From Ricordea florida (lineage: Eukaryota > Cnidaria > Anthozoa > Corallimorpharia > Ricordeidae), in NCBI GenBank assembly GCA_949710005.1, contig OX453272.1:15161088-15225087 (forward strand): a DNA stretch of 64,000 nucleotides, written 5' to 3'. The stretch's first letter is position 1; every line of letters begins with the position of its first letter. The position numbers and the translations under genes were made by a program. Below the pieces are notes generated by a model, which saw only the letters and a program-made list of their open reading frames with translations, did not search any database and was not told where the DNA came from. Positions 17,746 to 60,395 of this stretch are shown here, in pieces.

Positions 17746-17979
17746 GTGTTTTAGACTTAAAAAATATACTTTTAATTGCCAAAGGCAAAAAAGATCAACA
17801 CAAATCTTTCCCAGCCAAAACCTTTACAAAAACAAACAACACGTTTGCTATTAGAGGTATAGAACTTTCTATTTTATTGCGTTCGTGCAAAAGACATTCC
17901 GTGTTAATGTTCAAAGGGATCATTCGGCAGTAAATTGCCCTAAGCCATCTTGTTTAAAAAATCATTTCAGAGTGGCACT

Positions 17980-44628: not shown

Positions 44629-44693
44629 TGATGTAATAAAATGCGGGTTCTAGCACAAAATCATAAAATGGTTTAGGTAGACGAGTTTTGTGG

Positions 44694-44815
44694 AAGTCTT
44701 GATGAAGTCTTTGTGGTGTTGTGCGTGTGCTAGCATAAAATCAAATAAGTCTTGCTGATGTCTTGGTGATGTACCCATACAACCTTATTTTGCCGAAGTC
44801 TCGAATATGTCTTGG
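44694..44815. promoter_or_regulatory. Three paired 11-bp-spaced words in the TIR
   Basis: AAGTCTTGATG/AAGTCTTTG, AAGTCTTGCTG/ATGTCTTGG and AAGTCTCGAAT/ATGTCTTGG. The helical spacing suggests a repeated protein-binding site, perhaps for the integrase or terminal-protein initiation. This is inference. They are mirrored at about 60204-60325. Confidence 0.5.
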
Positions 44816-44921
44816 TAATTTTCTGATTAAGTTTTATAAAGGTGGCTAAAATTTTATCAAAAAGTATCAGAGATTTATATAGTAATAGTTCTAGGTCACA
44901 GGAATTTTTTTAAAAAAATGA

Positions 44922-44929
44922 TTTAAAGA
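44922..44929 (+). promoter_or_regulatory. TTTAAAGA box, polymerase gene
   Basis: 33 bp upstream of ATG 44955, inside the left TIR. Confidence 0.65.
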
Positions 44930-44954
44930 CTTGAAATTGTTTACAAAAATAGAA

Positions 44955-47900
44955 ATGGACCAATTAAATAATTTGAATACAAAACAATTAAGTTCTCTAC
45001 TTTCGTGGTATAAAATTCAAGGTAGATCAAAAATGACTACTAAATATGAAAAAATTCAAGCATTGGGTAATATACCTGAAATAATTAATAATGTGCAACA
45101 AATAGTTGATAATATTCGAGAAATTATTACATCGATAAATAATACGCCAAATAGAAGAGAAAACGAACCACAACCTCCTCTTCCAATTCCCCGCGTTACA
45201 ACACCTACAATTAGAAATACTAAAACACCCAAACTTTTTATTCCAACTACAACACAAATGCCGGGAACCCCTCCCGGTTCACCAGATCGATATAGGCCAG
45301 GAACACCACCAGGTTCTCCACCAACAAAACCTAAAAAGTCATCAAGAAAACCACAACCACTTAAAAATACAAAAACAAAACAAACTCCTTTTATGGGAAA
45401 TATATTAAACAAGTTTTGGGATTTTGTAAAACCATATATTCCTGAAAAAGTAAAAAATAAAACAGAAGAATTAGCTAAAAATTTTATAGAAAGATATAAA
45501 AAAGTAAATGAAACTCGCTCAGTGAAAAATAAACCCAAAGAAATAAAACCGCCACCTAAAAGAGATTATGAGAAGGAAGGTGCTAAACCTAAAACAAAAA
45601 GAAATGATAAAAAAGAAAATGAAGAAGATTTTACTCCAAAAGAATATGAATCAGCTATAAAAGGTAATTATATAAGTTATAGGATTGAAGGAAATAAAAA
45701 GAATGATGAAAAGGCATTCTTACATAAAATCAAACCAAAAGTTATAAATTTAATTAAAGATAGAGTGAAAAAACAAAGTTCATTAAAGACAAAATTTATA
45801 TTTTCGTTCATGTTCAAAAGAAAAAATTTGGATACTGGGGAAATTGAATACTGTGATGCTTGCTTTCCTTCTGTAAAATCTGAAATTGTTCTTGAAGCAA
45901 CAGATTTATCAGAATTATTTGATAGATTAATAAATGAACAACTTAGATTATTTGAAGAATTTTTACGTAATAAATCTGGCTGGGTATTCGATCATGTACT
46001 ATTTTTTGATATCTTTATCGATCGTTTTGTTCCTCTTTTAGGTGGGTCTTATATTCCTCTACCACCAGAATTAGAAAAAAAGAAAGCAATTACTAACCCA
46101 AAAAATAAGAAAGATAAAAAATGTTTCAAGCACTATATAACTGAGGCTGTATATCCAAGGAAGAAAAACCGACATAGAGTAAATAAAGAGTTGGAAGAAA
46201 ACTCTAAGAATTTTAATTGGAGTGGAATTAATTTTCCAGTTTCATTACAAGATATTACTACGTTTGAAGATCAAAATGATTATGATATTGCTATATTTGG
46301 ATATGATAAGAAAATTGGAGTATATCCTATAAAAAGAAGTAGGAAACGAGGATTTAAATTGATTAGATTACTTTTATTAACTGAAGAAAAAGATGAAGAA
46401 AAAGATGAAGAAAAAGATGAAGAAAAAGATGAAGAAATAAATAAACACTATTGCTTAATAAATGATATTAGCAGGCTTATATCTAAACAAGTTAGTAAAC
46501 GTAAATGTAAGATGTACTTTTGTGATAATTGTTTACACTCTTTTCACTTAAAAAGAACATTAGAAAAACACGAAGGATATTGTTATTTATACAATGAAGC
46601 TAGGATTGATATGCTAAAAGATAAAGATGGTGAACCCTGCTTTATTTCTTTTAAAAATTTTGTGAAAAAAATGAGAATACCTTTTCTTGCATATGTTGAC
46701 TTTGAGTCTATTTTAGAAAAAATCAAAAAAAATTGCTACCTAAATAAGAATAAAAGTTTTACTAATAAATACCAAAGACACAAACCAATTTCATTCGGAT
46801 GTTATATTAAGAGTTTTAATGAAAAAATATGTAAATCCAGATTTTATAGATATACAGCTAAATCACCCAACGATGATGTAGCACAGAAATTTGTAGAATA
46901 TATAGAAGCAGAATTTAAGAAAATTTATAAAAATTGTATAAGTTATAATGTAAAAAGATTTAAAAAATTTAATAAGAAAATGATGACAGAAAATGATGAA
47001 ATAAACTATAAAAATGCAACTAATTGTCATATCTGTGAAAAAGAATTGGGTGAAGATAAGGTAATAGACCACTGTCATCTTACAGGAAAGTATAGAGGCG
47101 CCGCTCATAAAGAATGTAACTTAAATTATAAGATCCCAAAATTCTTTCCTGTCATAATTCACAATCTATCAGGATATGATTCTCATCTATTTATTAATAA
47201 CCTCAGTAAAACAGAAGGTAAAATAAAAATTATACCTAATAATGAGGAAAAGTATATTTCTTTCTCAAAAGAGATTGTAGTTGATACCTTTAAAGATAAA
47301 GAAAGTGGTGAGATGAAAGATGTTAAGAGAGATATCAGATTCATAGATTCATTCAAATTTATGCAAACCGGCCTTAGTAGTTTAGTTGATAATCTTAAAA
47401 AATGTGGAAAGTGCGAGGCCTGCAAACCATTGGATTGTATGAAGAGATACATAGAAGATGAAAAGATTGTTCCGTATAAAGGTATTGGTAATTGTGAAAA
47501 ATGTAATAATTGTTTATTAGCAAAAAGTAAGTGTCTTTCTCCAAAAGATGAGAAATTAACTGAAACGAAAAAGAAATTTGGAGATAAGATGTATTTAATG
47601 TTGAGAAAGGGTGTATTCCCATATGATTGGCTTGATGATTTTGAGAAACTAAATGAAACCCAACTTCCACCAAAGGAAGCGTTTTACTCAAAACTTAACG
47701 GTAAAGATATTTCAGAAGAAGATTACCAACATGCTAAAAAGGTATGGAAAACTTTTAATATGAAAACAATGCGAGATTACCTTGATCTATATCTCAAGTC
47801 AGATGTGCTACTATTAGCGGATGTATTTGAAAACTTTAGAGATGTTTGTCAAAATAACTATGGATTAGATCCCGCTTGGTATTATACATCACCTGGACTA

Positions 47901-49301
47901 GCTTGGGATGCTATGTTAAAGTTAACTGGTGTTAAATTGGAGATGATAATTGACATTGATATGCTAAATATGATTGAGAAAGGTGTTAGAGGGGGTATAT
48001 CTCAGATATCAAATAGATATGCTAAAGCTAACAACCCATACATGAGTGAATATTTTCCTAACCTAGTTACAAATTATATAGAATATTTAGATAGAAACAA
48101 CTTATATGGTGAAGCAATGAGTAAACCACTACCTACTCATGGTTTAAAATGGATGAGTAAAGAAGAGCTTGAAAATTGGAGAAATATGCCATGTATAGTG
48201 GAGGCTAATATGGAATATCCAAAACACCTTCATGATTTACATAGTGACTATCCGCTAGCTCCTGAGAGAATTAAGGTTAATGGGGTTGATAAATTGATAC
48301 CAAACTTAAAAAATAAGGAAAAGTATGTAGTTCACCGAGAAACTCTAAAAAAATATGAAAGTCTAGGATTAAAAGTAACAAAAATTCATAGAGGCATTAA
48401 ATTCGAAGAGTCATCGTGGTTAAAACCTTACATTGATTTAAATACTGAATTTAGGGCTAATGCAAAGAATGATTTTGAAAAAGAATTCTTCAAACTTATG
48501 AATAACTCTGTATTTGGGAAAACTATGGAAAATCTTAGAAAAAGGGTAGATATACGATTGGTTACGAATGAGAAAGATGCAAAAAAATTAATATCAAAAG
48601 CTAACTATAATCGTCGTACTATTTTTTCTGAAAATCTTATGGCCGTTCATATGAATATAACACATATAAAATACAATAAACCTATTTACTTAGGAATGTG
48701 TATTTTGGATATAAGTAAAGCAATAATGTATGACTTTCATTATAATTATATCAAAGCAAAATATGGTGAAAAAGCTAAATTACTTATGACAGATACAGAT
48801 AGTCTTGTATATGATATAGTAACAGAGGATTTCTATAAGGATATAAGTTCAGATGTTAGAGAGATTTTTGATACAAGTAATTATCCTAAAAATCATCCAT
48901 CAGGTATTGAGACGGGTGTAAACAAAAAATTAATTGGTAAGTTTAAAGATGAAGCTGGTGGTAAAATAATAGCTGAATTTGTTGGTCTACGAGCTAAGCT
49001 ATACGCTTTTAGGATGGATGGTGGTAAAGAGATAAAAAAGGATAAAGGAATGAAAAAATCAGTTGTAGAAAATAACATATCATTTTATGATTACAAGGAA
49101 TGTTTAGAAAATAAAGTTAAGCAGATGAGGGAGATGGAAGTAATTAGAAGTTATAAGCACGTTATTTATACTGAAACTGTTAATAAAGTTGCACTATCTG
49201 CTGATGATGATAAGAGAATCATTTGTAAAGATGGAAAACATACTCTTCCATATGGACATTATCTTTCAGAAACAAAATTAGGAGGCAGCTCGGTATCATA
49301 A
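44955..49301 (+). CDS. polB: Protein-primed DNA polymerase B (pPolB)
   Basis: 1448 residues from ATG 44955; an in-frame TTG at 44931 is disfavoured because it lies only 9 bp from the promoter box. It replicates the element's linear DNA by protein priming. The order is: SAP/Rho_N-like N-terminus (GRSKM), Pro-rich linker, conserved N-terminal Polinton domain (SGWVFDHVLFFDIF), a (DEEK)n stretch, a C2H2-like finger CDNCLHSFHLKRTLEKH (about 521), ExoI YVDFES (about 580), an EndoVII-like zinc motif CHICEKEL...CHLTGKYRG (about 690), ExoII HNLSGYDSH (about 735), ExoIII YLKSDVLL (about 946), PolA DRNNLYG (about 1042), PolB NNSVFGK (about 1182), PolC TDTDSLVY (about 1278) and KLY (about 1346). All exonuclease and polymerase acidic residues are present. 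The 3' end overlaps the convergent integrase gene by 43 bp, adding a short tail after the usual GHY end. Confidence 0.97.
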   Translation: MDQLNNLNTKQLSSLLSWYKIQGRSKMTTKYEKIQALGNIPEIINNVQQIVDNIREIITSINNTPNRRENEPQPPLPIPRVTTPTIRNTKTPKLFIPTTTQMPGTPPGSPDRYRPGTPPGSPPTKPKKSSRKPQPLKNTKTKQTPFMGNILNKFWDFVKPYIPEKVKNKTEELAKNFIERYKKVNETRSVKNKPKEIKPPPKRDYEKEGAKPKTKRNDKKENEEDFTPKEYESAIKGNYISYRIEGNKKNDEKAFLHKIKPKVINLIKDRVKKQSSLKTKFIFSFMFKRKNLDTGEIEYCDACFPSVKSEIVLEATDLSELFDRLINEQLRLFEEFLRNKSGWVFDHVLFFDIFIDRFVPLLGGSYIPLPPELEKKKAITNPKNKKDKKCFKHYITEAVYPRKKNRHRVNKELEENSKNFNWSGINFPVSLQDITTFEDQNDYDIAIFGYDKKIGVYPIKRSRKRGFKLIRLLLLTEEKDEEKDEEKDEEKDEEINKHYCLINDISRLISKQVSKRKCKMYFCDNCLHSFHLKRTLEKHEGYCYLYNEARIDMLKDKDGEPCFISFKNFVKKMRIPFLAYVDFESILEKIKKNCYLNKNKSFTNKYQRHKPISFGCYIKSFNEKICKSRFYRYTAKSPNDDVAQKFVEYIEAEFKKIYKNCISYNVKRFKKFNKKMMTENDEINYKNATNCHICEKELGEDKVIDHCHLTGKYRGAAHKECNLNYKIPKFFPVIIHNLSGYDSHLFINNLSKTEGKIKIIPNNEEKYISFSKEIVVDTFKDKESGEMKDVKRDIRFIDSFKFMQTGLSSLVDNLKKCGKCEACKPLDCMKRYIEDEKIVPYKGIGNCEKCNNCLLAKSKCLSPKDEKLTETKKKFGDKMYLMLRKGVFPYDWLDDFEKLNETQLPPKEAFYSKLNGKDISEEDYQHAKKVWKTFNMKTMRDYLDLYLKSDVLLLADVFENFRDVCQNNYGLDPAWYYTSPGLAWDAMLKLTGVKLEMIIDIDMLNMIEKGVRGGISQISNRYAKANNPYMSEYFPNLVTNYIEYLDRNNLYGEAMSKPLPTHGLKWMSKEELENWRNMPCIVEANMEYPKHLHDLHSDYPLAPERIKVNGVDKLIPNLKNKEKYVVHRETLKKYESLGLKVTKIHRGIKFEESSWLKPYIDLNTEFRANAKNDFEKEFFKLMNNSVFGKTMENLRKRVDIRLVTNEKDAKKLISKANYNRRTIFSENLMAVHMNITHIKYNKPIYLGMCILDISKAIMYDFHYNYIKAKYGEKAKLLMTDTDSLVYDIVTEDFYKDISSDVREIFDTSNYPKNHPSGIETGVNKKLIGKFKDEAGGKIIAEFVGLRAKLYAFRMDGGKEIKKDKGMKKSVVENNISFYDYKECLENKVKQMREMEVIRSYKHVIYTETVNKVALSADDDKRIICKDGKHTLPYGHYLSETKLGGSSVS
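46384..46437 (+). repeat. 12 bp tandem repeat inside polB
   Basis: Four-plus copies of GAAGAAAAAGAT encode EEKDEEKD...; probably a slippage-prone linker between the N-terminal domain and the zinc finger. Confidence 0.9.
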
Positions 49302-50356
49302 GGAATAACTTGTAATTCTTCTCTAACAAATCCTAGTCTTGGTCCATCCGTCAAATAATATAAAACTGGTTGATTAGGTGAAATAACACTTCTAGAAATA
49401 TCATAAACTTTGATACTCCAAATAGGATCAGTAGCTCGTCTTTTTTCACCACCTTCAAGTTCCCCAGGAGATAATAAATATCTAACTTTAACACCAGGTA
49501 TTATCCTAACCTCATCAACTCCCACCACACGTTTGTAATTTTTAGTTTCAATATCAACCTCTTTCAGTTTTATAGCTTTATCAGGTTCTTTACCAGTTAT
49601 TCTCGTTGGTGTATTATTCAAAGTTTTTATAATATCTGGTAATCTTTTCGCCCATACTCTAGACCTTTCATCACTGATCATTTCTTGGGCATATTGATGA
49701 CTAAATAATCTTTCACCTAATATTCTGTTTGCTCTTTCAACAAATGCTTGAGCTCTATGATTTCCAGCTTCACTTCTCTGTATTTTCACATTATGATAAT
49801 TCATAAGTTTTGTAACCTCACCCATAAATTCTTTTCCTGGATCAACCATTAATGTTTTAGGATATTTTAACTTCCTGGAATGTATTTTTTCAAAAGCATT
49901 TGAAATTTCTCGACTTTCTTTTGAGGTTAATGGTTCAGCATCTTTATATCTAGAAGCAACATCAACCACAACTAATGCATATTTATATGTTTTTCTTCCA
50001 ACTCTATCATGCGGTAAAAATAATAAATCTGCTTGGTGAATTTGATTCGGTTTATTCACAGTCCAGTGAGGTCTAGGTATATATTTAGGGGCTGGAAGAT
50101 AGATTTGCCATATTGCTTGTTTTTGTAACCATTGTTTTGCATAATTTTCACTTACTTTTGCTTTTTCAGCTAATTTATTAATCGCAGAATATCCTTTCCA
50201 ATATCCCTCAGTTGAATAATATATCCGACTCAAAGTCGGGCCCGGCTTCACTTCGTGGGAGGGCTTGCTTCGCGGCCCGAAGGGTCTTGCCCGATCCGCC
50301 GATTTTTTCGATCCGCCGAAGGCGGGGAGAGCTTTGCTCGATAAGGTAGAACTCAT
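49259..50356 (-). CDS. int: Retrovirus-like integrase (rve, D,D35E)
   Basis: 365 residues from ATG 50356. It should cut and join the element's ends to host DNA. The catalytic triad is D110 (HQADLLFL), D172 (VDPGKEF) and E207 (FVERANR); the D172-E207 distance is exactly 35. A helical N-terminal segment (residues 50-80) precedes the core. The C-terminus has an SH3/chromo-like region ending GPRLGFVREELQVIP, typical of Polinton integrases. No HHCC zinc finger is visible. Residues about 5-40 are encoded by a GC-rich hairpin-like insert unlike the rest of the element, so the native N-terminus may be shorter. It is convergent with polB (43 bp overlap) and divergent from the capsid gene with only 34 bp between start codons. 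Confidence 0.95.
   Translation of the reverse strand: MSSTLSSKALPAFGGSKKSADRARPFGPRSKPSHEVKPGPTLSRIYYSTEGYWKGYSAINKLAEKAKVSENYAKQWLQKQAIWQIYLPAPKYIPRPHWTVNKPNQIHQADLLFLPHDRVGRKTYKYALVVVDVASRYKDAEPLTSKESREISNAFEKIHSRKLKYPKTLMVDPGKEFMGEVTKLMNYHNVKIQRSEAGNHRAQAFVERANRILGERLFSHQYAQEMISDERSRVWAKRLPDIIKTLNNTPTRITGKEPDKAIKLKEVDIETKNYKRVVGVDEVRIIPGVKVRYLLSPGELEGGEKRRATDPIWSIKVYDISRSVISPNQPVLYYLTDGPRLGFVREELQVIPYDTELPPNFVSER
50228..50345. repeat. GC-rich palindromic insert within integrase 5' end
   Basis: Contains CGTGGGAGGGCTTGCTTCGC, GGGTCTTGCCCGATCCGCC and GATCCGCCGAAGGCGGGG. Shares TGGGAGGGCTT and TGCCCGATCC with 55770-55795. Confidence 0.75.
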
Positions 50357-50363
50357 TTAAAGA
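50356..50363 (+). promoter_or_regulatory. TTTAAAGA box, capsid gene; divergent promoter
   Basis: 35 bp upstream of capsid ATG 50391. On the minus strand a TTATAAGA variant (50375-50382) lies 26 bp upstream of the integrase start. Both genes must be driven from this 34 bp gap and their own 5' codons. Confidence 0.6.
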
Positions 50364-50390
50364 TTAACCAAAGTATCTTATAAATCAAAT

Positions 50391-51629
50391 ATGACGTCTG
50401 AAAAAATTAATCCAAACAGAATTCCACGAGAGCCATTTGGTTTGAAAGCGGAATCAACACTTAATCGAATTACTCTCAATCCATCCTCAGCTAGCCCTGG
50501 AGAAACATTATATATAAATATTCCAAAACTTTCTGAGAATTTAGTACTTGTACCTGGAAGTGTATCTCTACTATTTAACTTGGATGTTGGCGGGCATGCT
50601 AATAACACACTTGTAAATAATGTAGGTAGTAATCTTGTATCTAGACTTAGGGTTCTTTTTGGTGGTGAAACATTACAAGATACTCAAAGATATGATCTAT
50701 TTCAAACCTATCATGACTTATTCTTAACAGATGAAGAACGTGAAGATAGATTAAAACAAGGCATTTCTTCTGAAAATATGAGGAAGCTAAGGACAAATGC
50801 GGGTGATAAGAAAACACAAGATGTTAAGGAAGAGGCTCTTTCAAAAGTGCACAACACCAAATATCGTATACCACTAAACCATCCTATTTTAAACGATCAT
50901 GGAGTTTTCTATCCAAAAGCACTAGATCATCATCTAATCTTTGAGATTACACTTGCTCCAATTAATGATATTGTTGTTTATTCTGACACTACTAAAACCC
51001 CAACATATTCAATCAAAAACCTTGAGTTAGAATATTCTTCCATTTCAAGTGAATACTTGGCTCGTGAGGCTCAGGCAGCTTATCAAGTTGGTAAAGGATT
51101 CTTTTATGAAAATGTCACTCTACATAAAACTTTTACCTTTTCTATAGGTGGTGATGGTGTTATAAATCAGCATATTAATCTACCTAGAAGATCAATGACA
51201 GGAATATTATGTTTGTTTACATTACCAATCACAGCAGGAGCACGCAACTCTGAGAATTTTTACAATCCAGGTATAACCTCGATTAATATAGATGTTGATG
51301 GTGTACCAAATCGTTTATACTCTAAGGGTATGATACCATCAGATCTATGGGAGTCAGTAAAGAAACGTTTTGAAAAGACTGAAAAGAGGTGGTCAGTAAA
51401 GGAAAAAGATTTTTATGCTGATAAGTTTGCTCTTTGGGTTGATATGAGAACTCACCCTGATAATGGTATTCATGGCGGTGGTCTAGCATTAAACAATACA
51501 CAAGATGGAGTAAAACTAGAGATTAAAAGAAAACAAAGTGGATCTGGTACTATAACCTGTCATATGTTTGTTGTGGCTGATGCAATGATGGAAATAATGA
51601 ATTCGGGTTTAAGATCAATTAAGTACTGA
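50391..51629 (+). CDS. MCP: Major capsid protein candidate (double jelly-roll, hexon-like)
   Basis: 412 residues with no membrane segment. It is the expected main building block of a Polinton/adintovirus virion. Supporting features are position directly before the packaging ATPase, length near that of adintoviral hexons, and a beta-rich sequence with segments such as LYINIPKLSENLVLVPGSVS, FEITLAPINDIVVY and KLEIKRKQSGSGTITCHMFV. Polinton capsid proteins commonly begin with such a STLNRI...P..LYI layout. The C-terminus ends GLRSIKY. No catalytic motif is expected. The assignment combines family knowledge and gene order; structure prediction would settle the two jelly rolls. Confidence 0.85.
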   Translation: MTSEKINPNRIPREPFGLKAESTLNRITLNPSSASPGETLYINIPKLSENLVLVPGSVSLLFNLDVGGHANNTLVNNVGSNLVSRLRVLFGGETLQDTQRYDLFQTYHDLFLTDEEREDRLKQGISSENMRKLRTNAGDKKTQDVKEEALSKVHNTKYRIPLNHPILNDHGVFYPKALDHHLIFEITLAPINDIVVYSDTTKTPTYSIKNLELEYSSISSEYLAREAQAAYQVGKGFFYENVTLHKTFTFSIGGDGVINQHINLPRRSMTGILCLFTLPITAGARNSENFYNPGITSINIDVDGVPNRLYSKGMIPSDLWESVKKRFEKTEKRWSVKEKDFYADKFALWVDMRTHPDNGIHGGGLALNNTQDGVKLEIKRKQSGSGTITCHMFVVADAMMEIMNSGLRSIKY

Positions 51630-51660
51630 CTTAAAAAACCTTATGTTATGATACAAAATC

Positions 51661-52287
51661 ATGGAAGAACTACGAGAAAAATTACCATTCCATTGTATTA
51701 TAACTGGACCAACAAATTGTGGGAAAACAAAGTATCTCATTGAACAGCTTAGAGGACCATTCCGAAAAGTGTTTGATTACATTGTTCTAATATGCCCAAC
51801 TTATTCTAAAAATAAAACCTATCATAATTTTGCTAATAAAGATAAACATTTCTATGTATTATCACCCGATGCAAGTAACATTGATGAGATTAATGAATTG
51901 TTAACTGATTGTCAAACTTTATTCTCTGGAACAAATACATTAATAATTTTAGATGATTGTGCTGTTTCGAATGATCTGAAGAAACGATCGAACAAGTTTA
52001 TAGATTTAGCATTCTCTGGAAGACATCATGGATTATCAGTGTGGGTTCTCACTCAGCAATTAACATCGATAGCAAAACCATTCCGAGAAAATGTGGCTTG
52101 TGTTGTTTCATTCCATAATCCATCACAAAAGGGTATGAAGATGCTTTTAGAAGATTATGGAGGTGATTTAGACTCTGAAACTAGTAAAAAGTTTGTACAA
52201 CTCCTGAAAACTGAAAAATATTCTAGACTGTGTTTATCTTTACGTCACCCATTTAATTGCTATTTGGAGATTCCTGAAGTGATTTAA
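51661..52287 (+). CDS. A32/FtsK-HerA-type DNA packaging ATPase
   Basis: 208 residues, 31 bp downstream of the capsid gene. It should power DNA loading into the capsid. Walker A GPTNCGKT at 16-23, Walker B TLIILDDC at 93-100 (D98, D99) and a downstream VWVLTQQ (127-133) with the polar residue typical of HerA/FtsK-type packaging ATPases. Length fits the compact Polinton/A32 family (about 200-250). The upstream box is weak (CTTAAAAAA, about 32 bp before ATG). Confidence 0.93.
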   Translation: MEELREKLPFHCIITGPTNCGKTKYLIEQLRGPFRKVFDYIVLICPTYSKNKTYHNFANKDKHFYVLSPDASNIDEINELLTDCQTLFSGTNTLIILDDCAVSNDLKKRSNKFIDLAFSGRHHGLSVWVLTQQLTSIAKPFRENVACVVSFHNPSQKGMKMLLEDYGGDLDSETSKKFVQLLKTEKYSRLCLSLRHPFNCYLEIPEVI

Positions 52288-52312
52288 AAATAATCCATCT
52301 ATTATCACAAAG

Positions 52313-52882
52313 ATGACAAGCGTTGAAGATTATATTGAAGAAGAAAAAACCGGAGGAAAGACAGAGGTAAAAGATGTTGTAAAAGATAATGATGAACTTG
52401 AAATAAAACAAGAATCACTAGCTATTCTAGCAGCTCTTGGAACCACAAAAGAGTATTTAGGTATTGATATGAGCCTAGGTGATATAAAAAAATTATCAGT
52501 GAAAGATGTTGATAAATATTATAATCGATACCAGGCAGTATTGGGCAAGAAAATTAGTGGTGGGTTAGTAGATTCATCACTTCAATTAATTTCTAAAGTT
52601 ATTTCTTACATGGTTCCTGTAGATGATATAGAATCTCTTTGTGATGATTTGAAGAATGATGATTTAGTTAATCGTGAACTAACAAACATTGTAGGGCTCT
52701 TAGCATTGAAAGCAGGAAGATTGGCAGCACTTGCTAGCGGGCTATTCCAGGTTGCTAAACACGTTAAATTCAACAAAATTCAACAATTTACAAGTACAAC
52801 TGAGCATAAAATACAAGAGGTTTCAAGCATGACTGAGCAGGCTACTAAGCAAGATGCTAATGGGTATGATACTGTTTACTAA
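52313..52882 (+). CDS. Hypothetical Polinton protein, 189 residues
   Basis: Acidic N-terminus (residues 1-35), then helical segments with KLSVKDVDKYYNRYQAVLGK and a hydrophobic patch VGLLALKAGRLAALASGLFQ near residue 135. The C-terminus is Gln/Thr-rich and ends GYDTVY. Placed directly after the ATPase, so it may be a virion or assembly protein. A TTTAAAAA variant box lies 30 bp upstream. No family was recognised. Confidence 0.75.
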   Translation: MTSVEDYIEEEKTGGKTEVKDVVKDNDELEIKQESLAILAALGTTKEYLGIDMSLGDIKKLSVKDVDKYYNRYQAVLGKKISGGLVDSSLQLISKVISYMVPVDDIESLCDDLKNDDLVNRELTNIVGLLALKAGRLAALASGLFQVAKHVKFNKIQQFTSTTEHKIQEVSSMTEQATKQDANGYDTVY

Positions 52883-52897
52883 TCAGTCCTAAAGGAG

Positions 52898-52905
52898 TCT
52901 AAAGA
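52898..52905 (+). promoter_or_regulatory. TCTAAAGA box
   Basis: Within CCTAAAGGAGTCTAAAGATT. 30 bp upstream of ATG 52928, which favours that start over the in-frame ATG at 52913 (15 bp). Confidence 0.6.
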
Positions 52906-52927
52906 TTTCTTAATGATATGTAAAATA

Positions 52928-53365
52928 ATGTCTGAAGAAGTTGTTGAGCAAATTACTAGAGATCATCCAAAAGAAGACCAAAAAACTGAGGTTGTTTCTT
53001 CAAAAAAGAGGGAGAAAGATCCTAAAAAAGTCGCTGCTGGTAAGAAATTAGCTGAATATAATAAAAAAGCAAAAGAAGCATTAGCTAGGGAAATGAAACG
53101 AGAAAAGGAACAAGCGGAGATTAAACGGGAAGAAGAGCAAAATGAAAATACAGAAAGTGAGTCTAAAGCGTGGCTTCCAGAGCTATCTTTTACAACCGTA
53201 TTATCAATTGTTGGAATAGGGTTTACAGCATTTGATATGTTTATGAGATATTATAAAAACAGAATACCTGATTTATCGCAAGTTCCTCAAATACCACAAC
53301 CACCCACACAACCATCAAATATACTACCACAACCGATAGATCGACCAAAAATTGGAATGATGTAA
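52928..53365 (+). CDS. Lys/Glu-rich membrane-anchored protein, 145 residues
   Basis: Start chosen at 52928 (MSEEVVEQ) by promoter spacing. A highly charged coiled-coil region (residues 15-75, AKEALAREMKREKEQAEIKR) is followed by one membrane segment (FTTVLSIVGIGFTAFDMFM, about 88-108) and a Pro-rich tail (VPQIPQPPTQPSNILPQP). The layout suits a virion membrane or scaffold protein, but the function is unknown. Confidence 0.75.
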   Translation: MSEEVVEQITRDHPKEDQKTEVVSSKKREKDPKKVAAGKKLAEYNKKAKEALAREMKREKEQAEIKREEEQNENTESESKAWLPELSFTTVLSIVGIGFTAFDMFMRYYKNRIPDLSQVPQIPQPPTQPSNILPQPIDRPKIGMM

Positions 53366-53416
53366 TTTCAGCGTAGCTGGCCGGCAAAACCGATTTTATT
53401 TTCATCCCTAAAGGGG

Positions 53417-53424
53417 TCTAAAGA
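53417..53424 (+). promoter_or_regulatory. TCTAAAGA box
   Basis: 33 bp upstream of ATG 53450. About 30 bp around it (CCTAAAGGGGTCTAAAGATT) duplicate the promoter of the preceding gene. Confidence 0.65.
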
Positions 53425-53449
53425 TTTCTTACTGATGTAGTAAAAAATC

Positions 53450-53668
53450 ATGTCAAACGAAAACAAACTTGTGAAAACTGTTACTGATTCTGCAGTACTT
53501 ATCGGATTAGCGGCTGGTGTTGGTTATGTAGCTAAAAAAGCTATGAAAGAATCATTTATGAACGACCCATCCTCAAGTATTACAAGTTATGCAAAATGGG
53601 TAGCTGTATTGTCGGGTAGTATGTATCTAAAAACATATTTAGAGGATCAAAAGATTTTACCAAATTAA
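53450..53668 (+). CDS. Small membrane protein, 72 residues
   Basis: Two hydrophobic stretches: SAVLIGLAAGVGYVAKKA (about 14-31) and YAKWVAVLSGSMYLKTYL (about 47-64). Function unknown; it is one of a cluster of short membrane proteins after the ATPase gene. Confidence 0.7.
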   Translation: MSNENKLVKTVTDSAVLIGLAAGVGYVAKKAMKESFMNDPSSSITSYAKWVAVLSGSMYLKTYLEDQKILPN

Positions 53669-53678
53669 GGAATAAAAA

Positions 53679-54071
53679 ATGGCAGCAATAGCAATGATGA
53701 TTGGTGGAGCTATATTGAATGCAACTACTTTCGTTGGCGGATCATATCTTGCAAAATATCTATCAGGAGATAAAACAGATACAGAAAAAATACGACACGA
53801 TAAAGCAATGGAAAAATATCAAAGAGATTACGCTGAATATCAGGAAAAAAGACAGAAACTAATTGATTGGAAAATGCAACAAAAAGAAGAAAAATATCAA
53901 GCATCAAAAAATATTTCAAAAACAAATGAAGCTTTTGAATTATATAGTCAAATGCATGAGCCAAAATTCTCTGATTATTATAGACCAAGTGATAATCAAA
54001 AGACGGGGGAAATGTTATATGTTGGTGGCGGTATGTTGGCGCTGGGTTACACAGTTAGTAAATTCTTTTAG
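53679..54071 (+). CDS. Membrane protein with charged core, 130 residues
   Basis: Hydrophobic N-terminus AIAMMIGGAILNATTFVGGS, a long Lys/Gln/Tyr-rich helical middle (about 30-90) and a C-terminal hydrophobic segment (MLYVGGGMLALGYTVSKFF). It starts 11 bp after the preceding gene, and its TCAAAAGA box (53647-53654) lies inside that gene. The family was not recognised. Confidence 0.75.
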   Translation: MAAIAMMIGGAILNATTFVGGSYLAKYLSGDKTDTEKIRHDKAMEKYQRDYAEYQEKRQKLIDWKMQQKEEKYQASKNISKTNEAFELYSQMHEPKFSDYYRPSDNQKTGEMLYVGGGMLALGYTVSKFF

Positions 54072-54091
54072 AAAAGTGTGTGCTTTGCACG

Positions 54092-54099
54092 TTTAAAGA
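54092..54099 (+). promoter_or_regulatory. TTTAAAGA box
   Basis: 31 bp upstream of ATG 54123; followed by TTTCTTACT as at 53425-53433. Confidence 0.65.
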
Positions 54100-54122
54100 T
54101 TTCTTACTAATTGGTAAAAATC

Positions 54123-55109
54123 ATGGCAGAAGGAGGATATTTACCAGAAGATTTAGATCCAACTGAACTAAATGAACCAAAAGATGATTATGATGATGAT
54201 GGTGATAATGATGAAACAATTTATTTATCTACAAATACATCCACCACCATTCCAAATTACCATGACGATTATGAGGAGGAAGAAACTTCATTTGGTGGTG
54301 AAAAACAACCCTTGTTAGACGCTAAGATTGAAGATCAAGAAGAAGCTGAAGATGAAATTAAAAGGATCTATCCGCGCTCAAATTTTAAAAAATTTATAAC
54401 ATTTTTAAAAGATATTGGGGAAGGAATAAAAAAACCTGCTGTTAAATTAAACAGAGGAAAAGCTGCAGAGTATGTTCTTTTGGATGGTGAATTTCAAAAT
54501 TTTAAAACTAAAAGTAAAAAACTTCCTGATCAATTAAAAAATGCTTTGGGTAAAAGAGCAGAAGATGTTGTTGAAGATATGGATATTGAAACTACAAAGA
54601 AAAAAGAAACACTAAATAAAAAGATTGAGAGGGTAAAATTCCTTGAGGATAAGCCTCTTAAAACACCGGAGGAAAATAACGAGATTGAAAATATAAATAG
54701 AGAAATTGCTGAGGATAATGAAGATATAGCAAACGATGAGAGTGAGAGAGAAAGAATACAAAATAGAATGTCATTGCGTGATCGTGTGAAGGCTATCTTT
54801 AAAAAGTATGGTTTTACAGTATTTGCTGTTATTAGTGCTGTGGGTGTCATCATTGGTGTTATAGTTTCTAATCTTTCAAAAGGGTTAAATACTTTGGGGA
54901 AAGGTGTTGGTAATGGGTTGAAAACTATAGGTAAAAAACTAGGTGAAATATTACCAGGAATGGTTGGTGCAATAGTTAGCTTTCTATTCAAAACAGCTGG
55001 TCAGGTTATTGGATTTTTAGGTGAGAATGCATGGTTGCTGATAATGGCTGTTGTTCTATATTTTGTGGAACGAATGAAAGGAGGAACAAGTGAAAAGAAG
55101 AGAAAGTAA
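54123..55109 (+). CDS. Acidic coiled-coil protein with C-terminal membrane segments, 328 residues
   Basis: Start at ATG 54123 (MAEGGYLPED). Strongly acidic first 80 residues, a charged helical middle with NKKIERVKFLEDKPLKTPEE, then a Gly-rich hydrophobic C-terminal third: VFAVISAVGVIIGVIVSNL, a repeated GKGVGNGLKTIGKKLGE amphipathic stretch, and ENAWLLIMAVVLYFVERM. It ends with a basic tail. The architecture resembles membrane-active or minor virion proteins, but no enzymatic motif is visible and function is unknown. Confidence 0.8.
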   Translation: MAEGGYLPEDLDPTELNEPKDDYDDDGDNDETIYLSTNTSTTIPNYHDDYEEEETSFGGEKQPLLDAKIEDQEEAEDEIKRIYPRSNFKKFITFLKDIGEGIKKPAVKLNRGKAAEYVLLDGEFQNFKTKSKKLPDQLKNALGKRAEDVVEDMDIETTKKKETLNKKIERVKFLEDKPLKTPEENNEIENINREIAEDNEDIANDESERERIQNRMSLRDRVKAIFKKYGFTVFAVISAVGVIIGVIVSNLSKGLNTLGKGVGNGLKTIGKKLGEILPGMVGAIVSFLFKTAGQVIGFLGENAWLLIMAVVLYFVERMKGGTSEKKRK

Positions 55110-55113
55110 CAAA

Positions 55114-55121
55114 TTTAAAGA
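55114..55121 (+). promoter_or_regulatory. TTTAAAGA box
   Basis: 34 bp upstream of ATG 55148. Confidence 0.6.
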
Positions 55122-55147
55122 TATCACGTTGATCAGTAAAATACAAT

Positions 55148-55759
55148 ATGGATGACTATAATAAAATTTATCCTCAACTACCTAATAATGTTGATCCAAT
55201 TTCCTCCATTCAAACGGTTAATTTCAGACTGCAAAAATCAAGCGAAGTATTACAAAATCTTGAGAGAGAAATTAAACATTACGAAGATGTAAGGAAAAAA
55301 TACAATAGAGTTAGAGGAATATTTTCAAAAATAAGTGTTTGTGGTGGATTGATTTCAGTTATTCTATCTGCAAGCGGTCTTGGAACTTCTCTTACTGGTT
55401 TTGGTGCTATTGTCGGCGTTCCATTGGGCGTCGTCGGTGGAATTTTTGGTGGATTATCGGTTGGATTTGGTTACGCCTCAAAAAGACTTTCTAATAAAGT
55501 TAGTAAACATGAACAAACCGCTGCAATCGCAAAATCAAAATTAAACACTATTAACGATTTGGTTTCAAAAGCTTTGAAAGATAATGTTATATCCGATCAA
55601 GAATTTTCTATAATTTTAGCAGAGTTGGAAAAGTTTCAAAAACTAAAACTAGAAGTTCGACAAAAATTTAGGGGAGATACAGAAAAAAACTTAAACATGT
55701 CTCAGATAAGAAGAGAAGTTCGTGCAGATCTATTAAAAGAATTAACCGGTCCAGCTTAG
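55148..55759 (+). CDS. Coiled-coil protein with central hydrophobic hairpin, 203 residues
   Basis: An N-terminal helix (SSEVLQNLEREIKHYEDVRK) is followed by a long Gly-rich hydrophobic stretch (about 65-118, GGLISVILSASGLGTSLTGF then VGVPLGVVGGIFGGLSVGFG) and a C-terminal coiled coil. The layout recalls small pore-forming or membrane-inserting proteins, but that is form only; the family was not recognised. Confidence 0.75.
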   Translation: MDDYNKIYPQLPNNVDPISSIQTVNFRLQKSSEVLQNLEREIKHYEDVRKKYNRVRGIFSKISVCGGLISVILSASGLGTSLTGFGAIVGVPLGVVGGIFGGLSVGFGYASKRLSNKVSKHEQTAAIAKSKLNTINDLVSKALKDNVISDQEFSIILAELEKFQKLKLEVRQKFRGDTEKNLNMSQIRREVRADLLKELTGPA

Positions 55760-55960
55760 CTCCGCTTCGCTGGGAGGGCTTTGCCCGATCCCGGACATTA
55801 AAAATTTCATATGAGAGAACTGATGTTGGATTCAATTGTTTTGCGGGGATTAGAAATACCAGCGAAGCTGACCCACCCTACGGGTGATAAGAAATTAATT
55901 GATAATACTTTACATCTTATTCTAGATCTGCTGCTATGCAGAGGCCAGCTTTGCTGGTTT
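55756..55960. repeat. GC-rich hairpin-type insert between genes
   Basis: Contains CTCCGCTTCGCTGGGAGGGC, TTTGCCCGATCCC, AGCGAAGCTGACCCACCCTA and GCCAGCTTTGCTGG, with many short palindromes in an otherwise AT-rich element. Related to 50228-50345. Confidence 0.65.
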
Positions 55961-55965
55961 AAAGA
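55958..55965 (+). promoter_or_regulatory. TTTAAAGA box
   Basis: 36 bp upstream of ATG 55994. Confidence 0.6.
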
Positions 55966-55993
55966 CCAGATTCTCTGAAACACAAAGAATAAG

Positions 55994-57523
55994 ATGTTAT
56001 TCGATGATTTCAAAAATAGATACCCAAACGCTAATCTTGATAAATTTACATTTGTGAATGATTCGTATGGAGGATATATTAAGTGGAAAGTTAATGGAAC
56101 AACAGTTATGTCAAATGATGATCCTACTGGAAAAACCTGGACCGATGATCTTCCTACTAATTTGAAAACATTATTATGGGGAGATTTAGGTTTAGAAAAG
56201 AAAGCTAAAGTTGGTTCGTTTCCAAAGAGTTTAACAATTACAAATCAATCTTACCCAATACCTGCTATTAATTTTGACGACTTTACAACTGATGTAACAA
56301 AAACTCTAACCTTTCTAGATATATACGTTTCAAATACTAAGAAATTCACAGCAAATATGAGAAACATATTTAAATCACAAGTTGTAACATTCGAATCTGC
56401 AAAACAAAGTAGAAAATGGTTGAATAAACCAGATATTAATTATTGGCCCCAACAACTTAACTTTGCAGTTTGGTGCGCAACATCTGGTTGTGGAATAAGT
56501 CTTTTTGAAAGTCTAAATTATCCTAAAGTAATTAGCAGTTTTATAAAGTTTCATATATATTTCACAATAAGGCGAATATTGTATGAATTGAAACTCCCCT
56601 TACCAGATGAAAAACCTTTTTCAATAAAAAATAATCCATATAACAAAGTTGCATATAATAGATTGTGCGAAGAGTTTGGGGTTAGTAATAATTCTGACTT
56701 TAGATGGAAAGGTGGTAGAAACGGAGGATTAGGTGACGAATTTATTTATTACAACTCAGGAGGAAATGAAAATTTATTTATTGTAAGAAATTATGATCAT
56801 GATGCAAATACTTGGCCTGGGCAAAATAAGTTTTCTGATGAGGGTTATAAGGAAGGAGATGGAAATTTAATCTCGTTTATTAGAAATGATGTATTTAGTG
56901 ATTTCAAATATGCTTGGTTTATTCCTGCAAACGGGCATGGTCTCACCAAAGCGGGGCTTGGTAGATTAAATCGATCCGCTGAAGCTTTTGTTTACTGCAT
57001 ATTAGGATCACAAGTTATTACTAGAAACTCAATTTATGGTAATGGAGGCGGTGCAATAGAAACACAACAAGAATTCTTAGCCTTATTTGAAAGTAGCGTT
57101 ATAGAAAATGATATTTCTAATTCTATTAAAAATTACCAAAAATCTGTACAGGAAACTAAATTACGACTTGATTTAGCTATCGCACCTGGCGTTTGGTTGA
57201 TGCCGAGTAATATGATTATAAATACAGAAAGTGTGGTTGGTTATAATAACAAACTCATGAAAGCCACTGAAGATATGAAATTTGGATTAAATTATTCATT
57301 AAATATTGAAACAAAAACAGTTGGAATAAGCCATAATTTAGGATCTTCAAAGGTTTCATTACCTCATAAAACCGAAACTAAACCAAAACCTATAATACCA
57401 ACAGAAACAACACAAACAGATGCAATTAAACCAGAAAATAATATTAAATCAACTCAACATGAAGATAATCTTATAGTATTTATGGTTGTTGGTGGCGCAA
57501 TAGCTTGGTACCTATTTCGTTAA
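55994..57523 (+). CDS. Conserved Polinton protein with C-terminal anchor, 509 residues
   Basis: A large protein with no recognised enzyme motif. Landmarks are SYGGYIKWK near the start, FTIRRILYELKLPLPDEKPF and NPYNKVAYNRL mid-protein, GHGLTKAGLGRLNRSAEAFV (about 320), a Thr/Pro-rich stalk (about 455-485) and a terminal hydrophobic anchor LIVFMVVGGAIAWYLF. Its full-length homologue is recognisable in the relic at 30290-32078, so it is a conserved component of this Polinton family. A virion surface or membrane role is plausible from the anchor and stalk, but it is not shown. Confidence 0.85.
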   Translation: MLFDDFKNRYPNANLDKFTFVNDSYGGYIKWKVNGTTVMSNDDPTGKTWTDDLPTNLKTLLWGDLGLEKKAKVGSFPKSLTITNQSYPIPAINFDDFTTDVTKTLTFLDIYVSNTKKFTANMRNIFKSQVVTFESAKQSRKWLNKPDINYWPQQLNFAVWCATSGCGISLFESLNYPKVISSFIKFHIYFTIRRILYELKLPLPDEKPFSIKNNPYNKVAYNRLCEEFGVSNNSDFRWKGGRNGGLGDEFIYYNSGGNENLFIVRNYDHDANTWPGQNKFSDEGYKEGDGNLISFIRNDVFSDFKYAWFIPANGHGLTKAGLGRLNRSAEAFVYCILGSQVITRNSIYGNGGGAIETQQEFLALFESSVIENDISNSIKNYQKSVQETKLRLDLAIAPGVWLMPSNMIINTESVVGYNNKLMKATEDMKFGLNYSLNIETKTVGISHNLGSSKVSLPHKTETKPKPIIPTETTQTDAIKPENNIKSTQHEDNLIVFMVVGGAIAWYLFR

Positions 57524-57540
57524 TGTTTTGATTATAGAAA

Positions 57541-57548
57541 TCTAAAGA
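57541..57548 (+). promoter_or_regulatory. TCTAAAGA box
   Basis: 32 bp upstream of ATG 57573. Confidence 0.65.
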
Positions 57549-57572
57549 TGAATATGATGTAATCAAAACAAA

Positions 57573-58208
57573 ATGTTAAGTATTACAATGTATGATTCAG
57601 AAACAAGGATTTATTTAGATCCACCACTCAAAAATGTTCAAGAGATACAGCTACTAGATTGTAATATAAAAACCAAAAGATTGATTAATTTCAAGGATCA
57701 ACAGATATTATCTGATGAAAGGGATCGGCCACTCGTAATAATACAACCTGGCACATATTCACTACGAAATATTCAATCAATATTTCTTAATAGTGAAAAG
57801 GGATCAAATATAACAATAATTGAAGGAGATACTATTGACTATCTATTTTCTAATAAGCCATTCAACATTAAAATTACTAAAGGTTTACAAGTTTCTTTAG
57901 GGCTGCCTGAAATTTTAAATACTGGTAAATTATACCCAATAAATATAAATATTAAGGAGCCATTAAGACTTATGTGCAGTATAGTGGATAATAAGTCTTC
58001 ATATATGAATAACAATAAATATTCAGAACTTGTAAAACTCTCACCATCACACTTACTAGCAAACATACCCTCAAAAGATTATCCAACAATTCCAGTTCGA
58101 AAATATGATACTCTAATAAACCACTTTGATTTAACAATTTTAGACGCAGAATGGAAAAAACTTAATCTTAAGGATTCTCCCATAACTATAAGTTTAAGAT
58201 TCAGATAA
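57573..58208 (+). CDS. Putative minor capsid (penton/vertex-like) protein, 211 residues
   Basis: Beta-rich sequence without membrane segments. The C-terminal third (MCSIVDNKSSYMNNNKYSEL, then PTIPVRKYDTLINHFDLTIL and SPITISLRFR) follows a layout common to small structural proteins of cnidarian Polintons, in which a C.IV..S block precedes a final D..G..I.I.L.FR strand. A vertex (penton) or fibre-base role is inferred from that pattern and from the need for a minor capsid protein. Structure prediction for a single jelly roll would test it. Confidence 0.55.
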   Translation: MLSITMYDSETRIYLDPPLKNVQEIQLLDCNIKTKRLINFKDQQILSDERDRPLVIIQPGTYSLRNIQSIFLNSEKGSNITIIEGDTIDYLFSNKPFNIKITKGLQVSLGLPEILNTGKLYPININIKEPLRLMCSIVDNKSSYMNNNKYSELVKLSPSHLLANIPSKDYPTIPVRKYDTLINHFDLTILDAEWKKLNLKDSPITISLRFR

Positions 58209-58262
58209 ATTTTTTTTTTTTTGTTATGTAACACTTATTTGAGTTATATAACATAATTATTT

Positions 58263-58886
58263 TTAATTAATATTCCATCTTTCTTTCAAATCTCTTAACT
58301 CTTCAAAATCAAGATACCAATTAGGATCCCATACTGATTTTTTTATTTCTTTATTTAAATCTTTGTAAAATTTCTTTTTATGATTTATTTTATCTTCATT
58401 TAAATATACAACTACATGTAATGATTTAATAAAAAATTTTTTATCAAAGCTTTCGATATTACATTCCTTGTCATAATAAAACATATAAACACCATTTTCA
58501 TAAAAATGATCAATTGCTTCTTGATCTTCAATAAGCATACCATATTCAAATCCACAATAATAACCATCTTCTTCCTCAAAGTAGTCTTTATTAGCAGTTT
58601 TTAAAAATTTTTTTACAAAATCATTAATGCATATGTCATCAACACCAAAATCTATATCTTTTGAAAAGCCAATACAATTTTTAAAATAGTTATTATCTTT
58701 ATTATAATATTCAACCCAAACATTTATATTATTGCAAAATATAAATTCATCAATAAAATGTATGGTCACAGCGATGTGTTCTCTATTTTTTGATAAATTT
58801 TTTAACAAATCTTCTTTTATTTCCTCTATAAAATCACAAATACCAAGCTTTTTATCATTTTCATATTTAATATTTAATTCCGACAT
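58263..58886 (-). CDS. Acidic hypothetical protein, paralogue A (207 residues)
   Basis: Starts MSELNIKYENDKKLGICDFI. Acidic, Phe/Tyr/Asp-rich, no membrane segment. Shares almost identical blocks with the next gene (FSKDIDFGVDDICINDFVK and NIESFDKKFFIKSLHVVVYL). TTTAAAGA box 29 bp upstream (58915-58908). Function unknown; such rapidly varying duplicates often serve host interaction, but this is speculation. Confidence 0.8.
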   Translation of the reverse strand: MSELNIKYENDKKLGICDFIEEIKEDLLKNLSKNREHIAVTIHFIDEFIFCNNINVWVEYYNKDNNYFKNCIGFSKDIDFGVDDICINDFVKKFLKTANKDYFEEEDGYYCGFEYGMLIEDQEAIDHFYENGVYMFYYDKECNIESFDKKFFIKSLHVVVYLNEDKINHKKKFYKDLNKEIKKSVWDPNWYLDFEELRDLKERWNIN

Positions 58887-58907
58887 TATTTTTTATTTTA
58901 TTTTATA

Positions 58908-58915
58908 TCTTTAAA
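58908..58915 (-). promoter_or_regulatory. TTTAAAGA box
   Basis: 29 bp upstream of the 58886 start; flanking ATTATGATTTAAAGATATAA is shared with 59602-59609. Confidence 0.65.
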
Positions 58916-58980
58916 TCATAATTCATTTCTAATTTTATTATGTAACCATTATTTTGGTTATATAACATAATTAGTTTTAA

Positions 58981-59580
58981 TTAATCTTCACCCCATAACT
59001 CTTTCAAAAACTTTAACTCCTCTATATCAATACACCAATCTAAATATCTAGATGGATGCCATGCTACTTTCATTAAATCATCATACAAGTCTTTGTAAAA
59101 TTTGTTTTTATGATTTATTTTATCTTCATTTAAATATACAACTACATGTAATGATTTAATAAAAAATTTTTTATCAAAGCTTTCGATATTACATTCCTTG
59201 TCATAATAAAACATATAAACACCATTTTCATAAAAATTATCAATTGCTTGTGGGTCTTCTTCTTCTTCTTCCTCAAAGTAGTCTTCATTAGCAGTTTCTA
59301 AAAGTTCTTTTACAAAATCATTAATGCATATGTCATCAACACCAAAATCTATATCTTTTGAAAAGCCAATACAATGTTCAAAATAGTTATTATCTTTATT
59401 ATAATATTCAACCCAACCATATATATTATCGTGTAATATAAAATCAATAAAATGTAAGGTTACATACATGTGTTCTCTATTTTTTGATAAATTTTTTAAC
59501 AAATCTTCTTTTATTTCCTCTATAAAATCACAAATACCAAGCTTTTTATCATTTTCGTATTTAATATTTAATTCCGACAT
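58981..59580 (-). CDS. Acidic hypothetical protein, paralogue B (199 residues)
   Basis: Tandem duplicate of 58263-58886. The N-terminus and the SKDIDFGVDDICIND and SFDKKFFIKSLHVVVYL blocks are identical. The middle differs, with an EEEEEED run where paralogue A has YYCGFEYGM, and the C-termini diverge. The promoter region was duplicated as well. Confidence 0.8.
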   Translation of the reverse strand: MSELNIKYENDKKLGICDFIEEIKEDLLKNLSKNREHMYVTLHFIDFILHDNIYGWVEYYNKDNNYFEHCIGFSKDIDFGVDDICINDFVKELLETANEDYFEEEEEEDPQAIDNFYENGVYMFYYDKECNIESFDKKFFIKSLHVVVYLNEDKINHKNKFYKDLYDDLMKVAWHPSRYLDWCIDIEELKFLKELWGED

Positions 59581-59596
59581 TATTTTATATTTTATT

Positions 59597-60064
59597 TTAT
59601 ATCTTTAAATCATAATTCATTTCTAATTTTATTCTACATTCTTTACAAGAAGCTTTTTGTTTACCATGTTCACATATTTGCGATCCTCCACATTCTTTAC
59701 ATTGTTGTTTTTGTTTATTATGTTTGCATATATGGGATCCACCACATTCTTTACAACGATACTTATATTTATTATGTTTGCATATTTGAGATCCTTTACA
59801 CTTTTTACAACAATACTTAATTCTATCATGTTCGCATATTTGTGATCCACCGCATTCTTTACAAAAATATTTAAGTTTTCCATGAATACAAATATACTCA
59901 CTAGTAGTAGTAACTTTTTCAATTAAATTAATAATTTCCTCCTCTTTAAATTTTTTTAACTCATTAATAAAATCTTTTCTACTCATTTTTGATCTTCCTT
60001 TAATTTTTAACTCTTTCGCAATTCTTTTTAGTTCATAAAAATATAAATTATTTAATTGGTCCAT
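59597..60064 (-). CDS. Cys/His-repeat protein with SAP-like N-terminus, 155 residues
   Basis: Start at ATG 60064 (MDQLNNLYFYELKR), inside the right TIR, so its promoter and first codons equal those of polB. Residues 1-40 are SAP/Rho_N-like (KIKGRSKMSRKDFINEL). From about residue 60 an 18-residue unit CKECGGSQICEHGKQKAS repeats about five times with conserved CxxC and CxH, most likely binding zinc. The product probably binds nucleic acid. A degenerate homologue is in the relic at 29572-30249, there fused to an N-terminal polymerase-like region, suggesting it arose from a polB duplication through the TIR. Confidence 0.85.
   Translation of the reverse strand: MDQLNNLYFYELKRIAKELKIKGRSKMSRKDFINELKKFKEEEIINLIEKVTTTSEYICIHGKLKYFCKECGGSQICEHDRIKYCCKKCKGSQICKHNKYKYRCKECGGSHICKHNKQKQQCKECGGSQICEHGKQKASCKECRIKLEMNYDLKI
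59602..59609 (-). promoter_or_regulatory. TTTAAAGA box
   Basis: 29 bp upstream of the 59580 start, overlapping the 3' end of the Cys/His-repeat gene. Confidence 0.6.
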
Positions 60065-60390
60065 TTCTAATTTTGTAAACAATTTCAAGTCTTTAAATCA
60101 TTTTTTTAAAAAAATTCCTGTGACCTAGAACTATTACTATATAAATCTCTGATACTTTTTGATAAAATTTTAGCCACCTTTATAAAACTTAATCAGAAAA
60201 TTACCAAGACATATTCGAGACTTCGGCAAAATAAGGTTGTATGGGTACATCACCAAGACATCAGCAAGACTTATTTGATTTTATGCTAGCACACGCACAA
60301 CACCACAAAGACTTCATCAAGACTTCCACAAAACTCGTCTACCTAAACCATTTTATGATTTTGTGCTAGAACCCGCATTTTATTACATCA
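60045..60390 (-). repeat. Right terminal inverted repeat (346 bp)
   Basis: Inverted copy of 44629-44974 with one mismatch, ending TTATTACATCA. Confidence 0.97.
60090..60097 (-). promoter_or_regulatory. TTTAAAGA box
   Basis: 33 bp upstream of ATG 60064; TIR copy of the polB box. Confidence 0.65.
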
Positions 60391-60395
60391 TACAC
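60391..60395. repeat. Polinton target-site duplication, right
   Basis: TACAC, matching 44624-44628. Confidence 0.85.

Follow-up and report, generated by a model that had tools for sequence, protein, structure and literature searches.

Cnidarian capsids are the only metazoan ones that have been placed outside the Maverick/adintovirus cluster (Bellas 2023, PMC10120064). Two sea-anemone Polinton capsids were grouped among group X of the Polinton-like viruses (PLV), and Polinton-PLV chimeras were suggested (Yutin 2015, PMC4642659); the element P-3_NV was connected to the PgVV capsid (Krupovic 2014, PMC4028283), and similar chimeras have been named meldviruses (Buck 2024, PMC11071296; general background in Krupovic 2024, PMC11071308). 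The element described here lies in a 64,000-nucleotide stretch of the Ricordea florida genome (contig OX453272.1, positions 15,161,088 to 15,225,087; hereafter the window). It probably represents a chimeric, Polinton-kind lineage of double-stranded DNA viruses, in which a Polinton family B DNA polymerase (PolB) and integrase are combined with a capsid of giant-virus/PLV type and an A32-type packaging ATPase, and which integrated recently. The kind is known and little studied; its scale in an animal, the constraint on its capsid and the absence of a near donor raise its interest. A literature search on anthozoan or chimeric Polintons returned no further paper, and no claim is made that none is in print.

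Nematostella vectensis Polintons with a PLV-type capsid (P-3_NV) resemble the Ricordea element in their anthozoan PolB relatives, rve integrase and non-hexon capsid, a likeness of gene content. Meldviruses (Meld23486; PMC11071296) similarly join an adintovirus-like PolB and integrase to capsid genes like those of larger DNA viruses. Vertebrate Mavericks (PMC8097293), of which 134 intact elements were reported from 17 species, share the inverted ends and the PolB, integrase, ATPase and capsid genes, and purifying selection acts on their core genes. They differ in their 6-bp duplications, in having a protease among the conserved genes and in copy number, the highest value cited being 287 per genome. 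The Maverick-Polintons of Trichomonas vaginalis are comparable in having thousands of capsid genes per genome (2,224 and 4,841; PMC10120064), although the host is a protist and the likeness is one of capsid-gene number.

An initial annotation of the window had described a recent, structurally intact insertion in a long interspersed nuclear element (LINE), with 346-bp ends one base apart, open large frames and a visible target duplication, and the comparison of ends and flanks bore this out (coordinates in Table 1). The sole mismatch between the 346-nt ends is at 44949 versus 60070, and the 14 frames cover 89.8% of the element with no internal stops. The duplication, TACAC, is exactly 5 bp (a 6-bp match fails), and its description has to be qualified in that respect, as 6 bp is given for vertebrate Mavericks. 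When 1,500 nt of each flank were joined minus one TACAC, the LINE reverse transcriptase frame (404 amino acids, aa) was unbroken over the junction. The element was recently inserted in an old retrotransposon, which it interrupts exactly. Three of the 40 scored LINE matches covered positions 1-299, 1-299 and 1-293 of a 300-nt joined flank at 86-87% identity, and are paralogous empty sites.

Related elements were sought in the whole genome (537.8 Mb, 48 contigs), and end matches were grouped by position into 16 pairs, the window's included. The grouping excluded unpaired end matches (C15:8.28 Mb, C5:25999180, C12:981558, C2:12793158, C14:10980677-10980968, C14:2906893 and C9:28823885), as well as an additional left end at C10:1246411. 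An exact 5-bp duplication adjoins TGATG or AGAGA ends in 15 of the 16 pairs, none being found for element C7_14.30; chance is ruled out as the cause because, with 8 boundary shifts allowed for, only ~0.8% of pairs would be expected to share an exact 5-mer. The suggestion in the initial annotation that an assembly error might have created the matching ends is met by the target duplication, the restored LINE frame and the terminal organisation shared with 15 other paired elements, and such an artefact, in favour of which nothing was found, is very unlikely. The inverted ends of some hundred bp and length of 15-20 kb typical of Polintons/Mavericks are both present (346 bp; 15,762 bp), and the 6-bp duplication is not, the window and 15 of 16 pairs overall having 5 bp. 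Because of this departure from the 6 bp of vertebrate Mavericks, the element was not filed as a canonical Maverick; it is not claimed that 5-bp Polinton duplications are unreported in the literature.

The divergence between the window's ends (1/346, or 0.29%; 95% interval 0.007-1.6%) corresponds to an insertion age of ~0.5 million years (interval 0.01-2.7) at an assumed rate of 3e-9 substitutions per site per year. Within-pair end identity was 92.6%-100% across the 16 pairs, lowest in C4_3.89, C5_24.89 and the outer part of C4_18.59 (92.6-93.2%); the exception was the repeat-rich C10_1.25, at 97.4% over its outer 195 nt but 85.7% in its longest alignment, which is rich in gaps. These identities come from the longest or outermost local alignment, and internal repeats in several ends give gaps. 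It could be argued that gene conversion keeps the ends of old insertions alike and that the element is older than it appears: most pairs are alike whatever the element, and the gapped alignments produced by internal repeats are compatible with such a process. This is improbable, however, given that the frames lack internal stops, the 5-bp duplication is intact and the interrupted LINE is still open over the junction.

The terminal repeats also carry the starts of genes. As both ends bear the same start-codon-carrying repeat, PolB and the right-end gene begin within it, both at base 327, and the repeat supplies both starts and the first codons. In all 16 pairs the aligned repeat contains an ATG at both ends, that of PolB and the opposite one. 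The gene at the non-PolB end is the zinc-repeat gene or a relative in 12 of these, an accessory-gene relative in three (C4_3.89, C11_23.50 and C5_24.89) and a different frame in C2_46.92. This arrangement suggests a role for the repeat as a portable promoter-plus-start cassette that receives varied right-end genes, and near-identical, inward-facing promoters would probably drive PolB and the right-end gene. In the window, the right-end gene contains five 54-nt repeats (59633-59902), each coding an 18-aa C-H-C-C unit, and five-unit C-H-C-C frames were also found at seven other element ends.

The initial annotation credited the element with a full replication, integration, capsid and packaging set. 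Genes for replication, integration, the major capsid protein and the packaging ATPase are indeed present, whereas no maturation protease or penton was recognised. The exonuclease, A, B and C motifs of PolB are kept in 11 aligned proteins, none of which (0/11, the window PolB included) matched Pfam PF03175. PolB has a SAP/Rho_N-like N-terminus and an Endonuclease_7 insert at residues 678-723; it is 50-64% identical to three Nematostella proteins, and the named entries among the 120 relatives listed are three from Nematostella and one from Exaiptasia. The alignments with its closest relatives break off at window positions 47400-47595, close to paired cysteines at residues 817 and 847, and this stretch is apparently a variable insert within the polymerase. 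Integrase catalytic residues D110-D172-(34)-E207 form a DD34E arrangement, in keeping with the retrovirus-type integrase of Polintons/Mavericks, and the ATPase, which has Walker A (GPTNCGKT) and Walker B (LIILDD) motifs, is of their FtsK/A32 packaging type. Matches in PHROGs were weak, except to transposase (integrase) and terminase (ATPase), and a PDB sequence search with the capsid, ATPase, 509-aa protein and PolB gave no meaningful match. Elsewhere in the genome, family B polymerase matches occur on one strand at C8:21371593, 21376908 and 21382222, with spacings of 5,315 and 5,314 nt, and may reflect a short polymerase-bearing unit repeated in tandem.

The major capsid protein has the double jelly-roll fold found in Polintons/Mavericks, and among solved structures its predicted model is closest to giant-virus capsids. 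The earlier description of the element as ‘adintovirus-like’ was not retained in view of this fold and of the published placement of cnidarian capsids outside the Maverick/adintovirus cluster (PMC10120064). Weighing the other way, the capsid fold search placed an adintovirus capsid protein eighth (rank 8) in the viral fold library. The element was provisionally not filed as an adintovirus, a group recognised by its hexon, an N-terminal OTU-like domain in PolB and an integrase chromodomain. A canonical alpha- or beta-adintovirus, or a vertebrate-type Maverick, would share the PolB, rve integrase, ATPase, inverted ends and 15.8-kb length, and the rank 8 match agrees with it; it is nevertheless highly improbable in light of the giant-virus-like capsid fold, the 5-bp duplications in 15/16 pairs, the absence of an adenovirus-type protease match in the Pfam and NCBIfam scans and the position of cnidarian capsids cited above. 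By gene content, the element appears to fit the chimeric Polinton/meldvirus group.

The genome holds ~2,000 related capsid genes, a scale beyond what the single window could show. A capsid probe of 33 nt, allowing up to 2 mismatches, was found at 1,951 places and an integrase probe at 2,869, and reversed control probes at none. An exact integrase-probe place lay on the same strand, no more than 1.5 kb upstream, for 46 of the 64 exact capsid-probe places (C1, up to 43 Mb), with a chance expectation of ~0.002 per place; the lists gave 69 capsid-probe places on C1 and 100 integrase-probe places, of which 64 and 98, those up to 43 Mb, entered this count. Conserved integrase and ATPase stretches adjoin all 29 other capsid loci. 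If each capsid place were a 15.8-kb element, these would amount to ~31 Mb, or 5.7% of the genome, an extrapolated figure best taken as an upper guide, because partial copies may be numerous. Capsid and 211-aa gene matches together span contigs C1 to C16. Among the copies scored, 100 of 101 capsid genes (best 101 of 6,195 candidates) and 149 of 150 211-aa genes (best 150 of 4,655) are free of stops; both lists hold the best-scoring copies only and overstate intactness. At C14:9949394(+) and 9962441(-), two 211-aa gene copies with equal scores lie inverted ~12 kb apart, and the accessory region is arranged likewise.

Selection on the capsid was estimated from 23 of 30 capsid loci, the window's included, that are of equal length; seven were left out because their length differs, including L058, whose protein is the most similar (99%). 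Silent divergence (dS) of the 22 other top-scoring genes from the window copy was 0.107-0.397, with ratios of nonsynonymous to silent divergence (dN/dS) of 0.056-0.115. Over all 253 pairs of the 23 copies the median dN/dS was 0.072, and the maximum was 0.121 among the 248 pairs with dS >0.02. Under neutrality, 0.4% of capsid genes would be stop-free at 0.1 substitutions per site, and 6% at 0.05. The copies were chosen by protein score (the 101 best of 6,195, and the 30 top of those), which biases dN low. Neutral decay would not combine a silent divergence of 0.1-0.4 with protein change of a few per cent, so a working capsid would have been needed in the lineages leading to these copies; among the best-matching copies there is, on this analysis, purifying selection for it.

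A near-identical copy should rank first among scored candidates, and none was found for any part searched. The best match to the capsid region was 95.5% over 2.77 kb (29 other loci), that to the right part was 95% over 700 nt, with one 52-nt piece at 96% (best 40 of 4,658), and that to the PolB slice was 98% over 906 nt, at C1:27.87 Mb (best 40 of 3,219). The C1:27.87 Mb element falls to 96% in the adjoining 903 nt and to 92% around the capsid. No scored copy is similar enough to have given rise to an insertion this young, and the fact that different parts of the element have different nearest relatives points to recombination among elements. The ends of other elements were 71-92% identical to those of the window, many over part of their length (best 40 of 273 candidates).

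These observations may be read in terms of an intracellular transposon family that moves by germ-line transposition and carries its capsid genes along, the window's donors being polymorphic or lost. The very high copy number, the spread of matches over contigs C1 to C16 and the first description of Polintons as self-synthesizing transposons all accord with this. It would have to accommodate, however, a strong capsid constraint in the copies analysed (biased to good matches), the lack of a close donor among scored candidates despite 0.29% end divergence, and ends that are mostly alike within pairs yet differ from the window's; it is rather unlikely. The explanation preferred here is repeated independent insertion by a capsid-dependent lineage, which is likely. 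More tentatively, the host may have been colonised repeatedly and independently by large, diverse, still-circulating, integrating capsid-bearing viruses, a population of which the ~2,000 copies would be a sample, as opposed to members of a transposon family that multiplied within the genome.

Several points weigh against this explanation. Its basis is the genome sequence, and neither particles nor transcripts nor a free form were seen; of the viral contigs (IMG/VR) searched with the capsid, 15 stretches fit the pattern and none was confirmed as a relative. The donor is possibly absent from the single assembly or among the unscored candidates, and gene conversion between the ends could make the insertion appear younger. 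Selection of stop-free, low-dN copies favours the reading adopted here in both intactness and dN/dS. No adenovirus-type protease was matched in Pfam (14 element frames) or NCBIfam (8 frames), a divergent one being possible, and the same scans gave no penton (single jelly-roll minor capsid). Damage is seen in some of the paired elements: in C9_11.86 the PolB frame ends after 238 aa, and C13_21.85 has a split right-end gene.

Table 1. Features of the element and its flanks, in window positions.
Feature	Position	Strand	Basis or remark
Whole element, 15,762 bp	44629-60390		Ends, target-site duplication and open reading frame scan
Left target-site duplication, TACAC	44624..44628	.	Flank comparison
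Right target-site duplication, TACAC	60391..60395	.	Flank comparison
Left terminal inverted repeat, 346 bp	44629..44974	+	Starts TGATG; holds PolB start codon (44955)
Right terminal inverted repeat, 346 bp	60045..60390	-	One-base difference; holds right-end gene start codon (60064)
Family B DNA polymerase, Polinton kind, 1448 aa	44955..49301	+	Exonuclease and polymerase motifs
Retrovirus-type integrase, 365 aa	49259..50356	-	rve E 1.9e-9
Major capsid protein, double jelly-roll, 412 aa	50391..51629	+	Fold model
Packaging ATPase, 208 aa	51661..52287	+	Pox_A32 E 1.5e-12
Acidic protein, 189 aa	52313..52882	+	No assignment
150-aa protein	52913..53365	+	One possible membrane segment
130-aa protein	53679..54071	+	Possible membrane segment
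332-aa protein, from first start codon (first ATG = residue 5)	54111..55109	+	Strong membrane segment; cysteine-free
203-aa protein	55148..55759	+	Hydrophobic glycine-rich segment
509-aa protein	55994..57523	+	1,897 homologues at E<=0.001
211-aa protein	57573..58208	+	149 of 150 scored genome copies stop-free
Accessory gene, 207 aa	58263..58886	-	Tandem duplicate of 58981..59580
Accessory gene, 199 aa	58981..59580	-	Tandem duplicate of 58263..58886
Right-end gene, 155 aa	59597..60064	-	PolB-like N-terminus (53% over 30 aa) ahead of five C-H-C-C repeats of 18 aa each
Interrupted LINE reverse transcriptase	60396..60958	-	Frame runs on left of 44624

Among the remaining genes, the 211-aa protein is a tentative penton candidate. 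A structure model of the 509-aa protein was discarded (predicted local distance difference test score, pLDDT, 42). The accessory duplicates (58263-59580) share blocks that are 89-96% identical, and their relatives are terminal in three other elements. Outside the element, the window has a 5S rRNA match (61.7 bits) at 17629-17747.

In the proposed cycle, linear DNA would be replicated from its inverted ends by PolB, and the ATPase would package it into capsids of the 412-aa protein. The integrase would join the TG...CA termini, with a 5-bp stagger, to host DNA, in this case in a LINE. Particles would form, and the lineage would spread by means of them rather than only within germ lines.

The existence of Polinton-type particles is a prediction of long standing, and the vertebrate Maverick paper states that none had been observed (PMC8097293). 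This branch offers two concrete traits that can be checked, its 5-bp duplications and the placement of start codons within the inverted repeats. The ~2,000 capsid-probe places, the capsid constraint in the copies analysed and a young insertion with no near donor make the question of virus or transposon directly testable in one host. If repeated insertion by circulating capsid-bearing viruses is true, this cnidarian would be a practical place in which to seek the long-sought particles of Polinton-type viruses.

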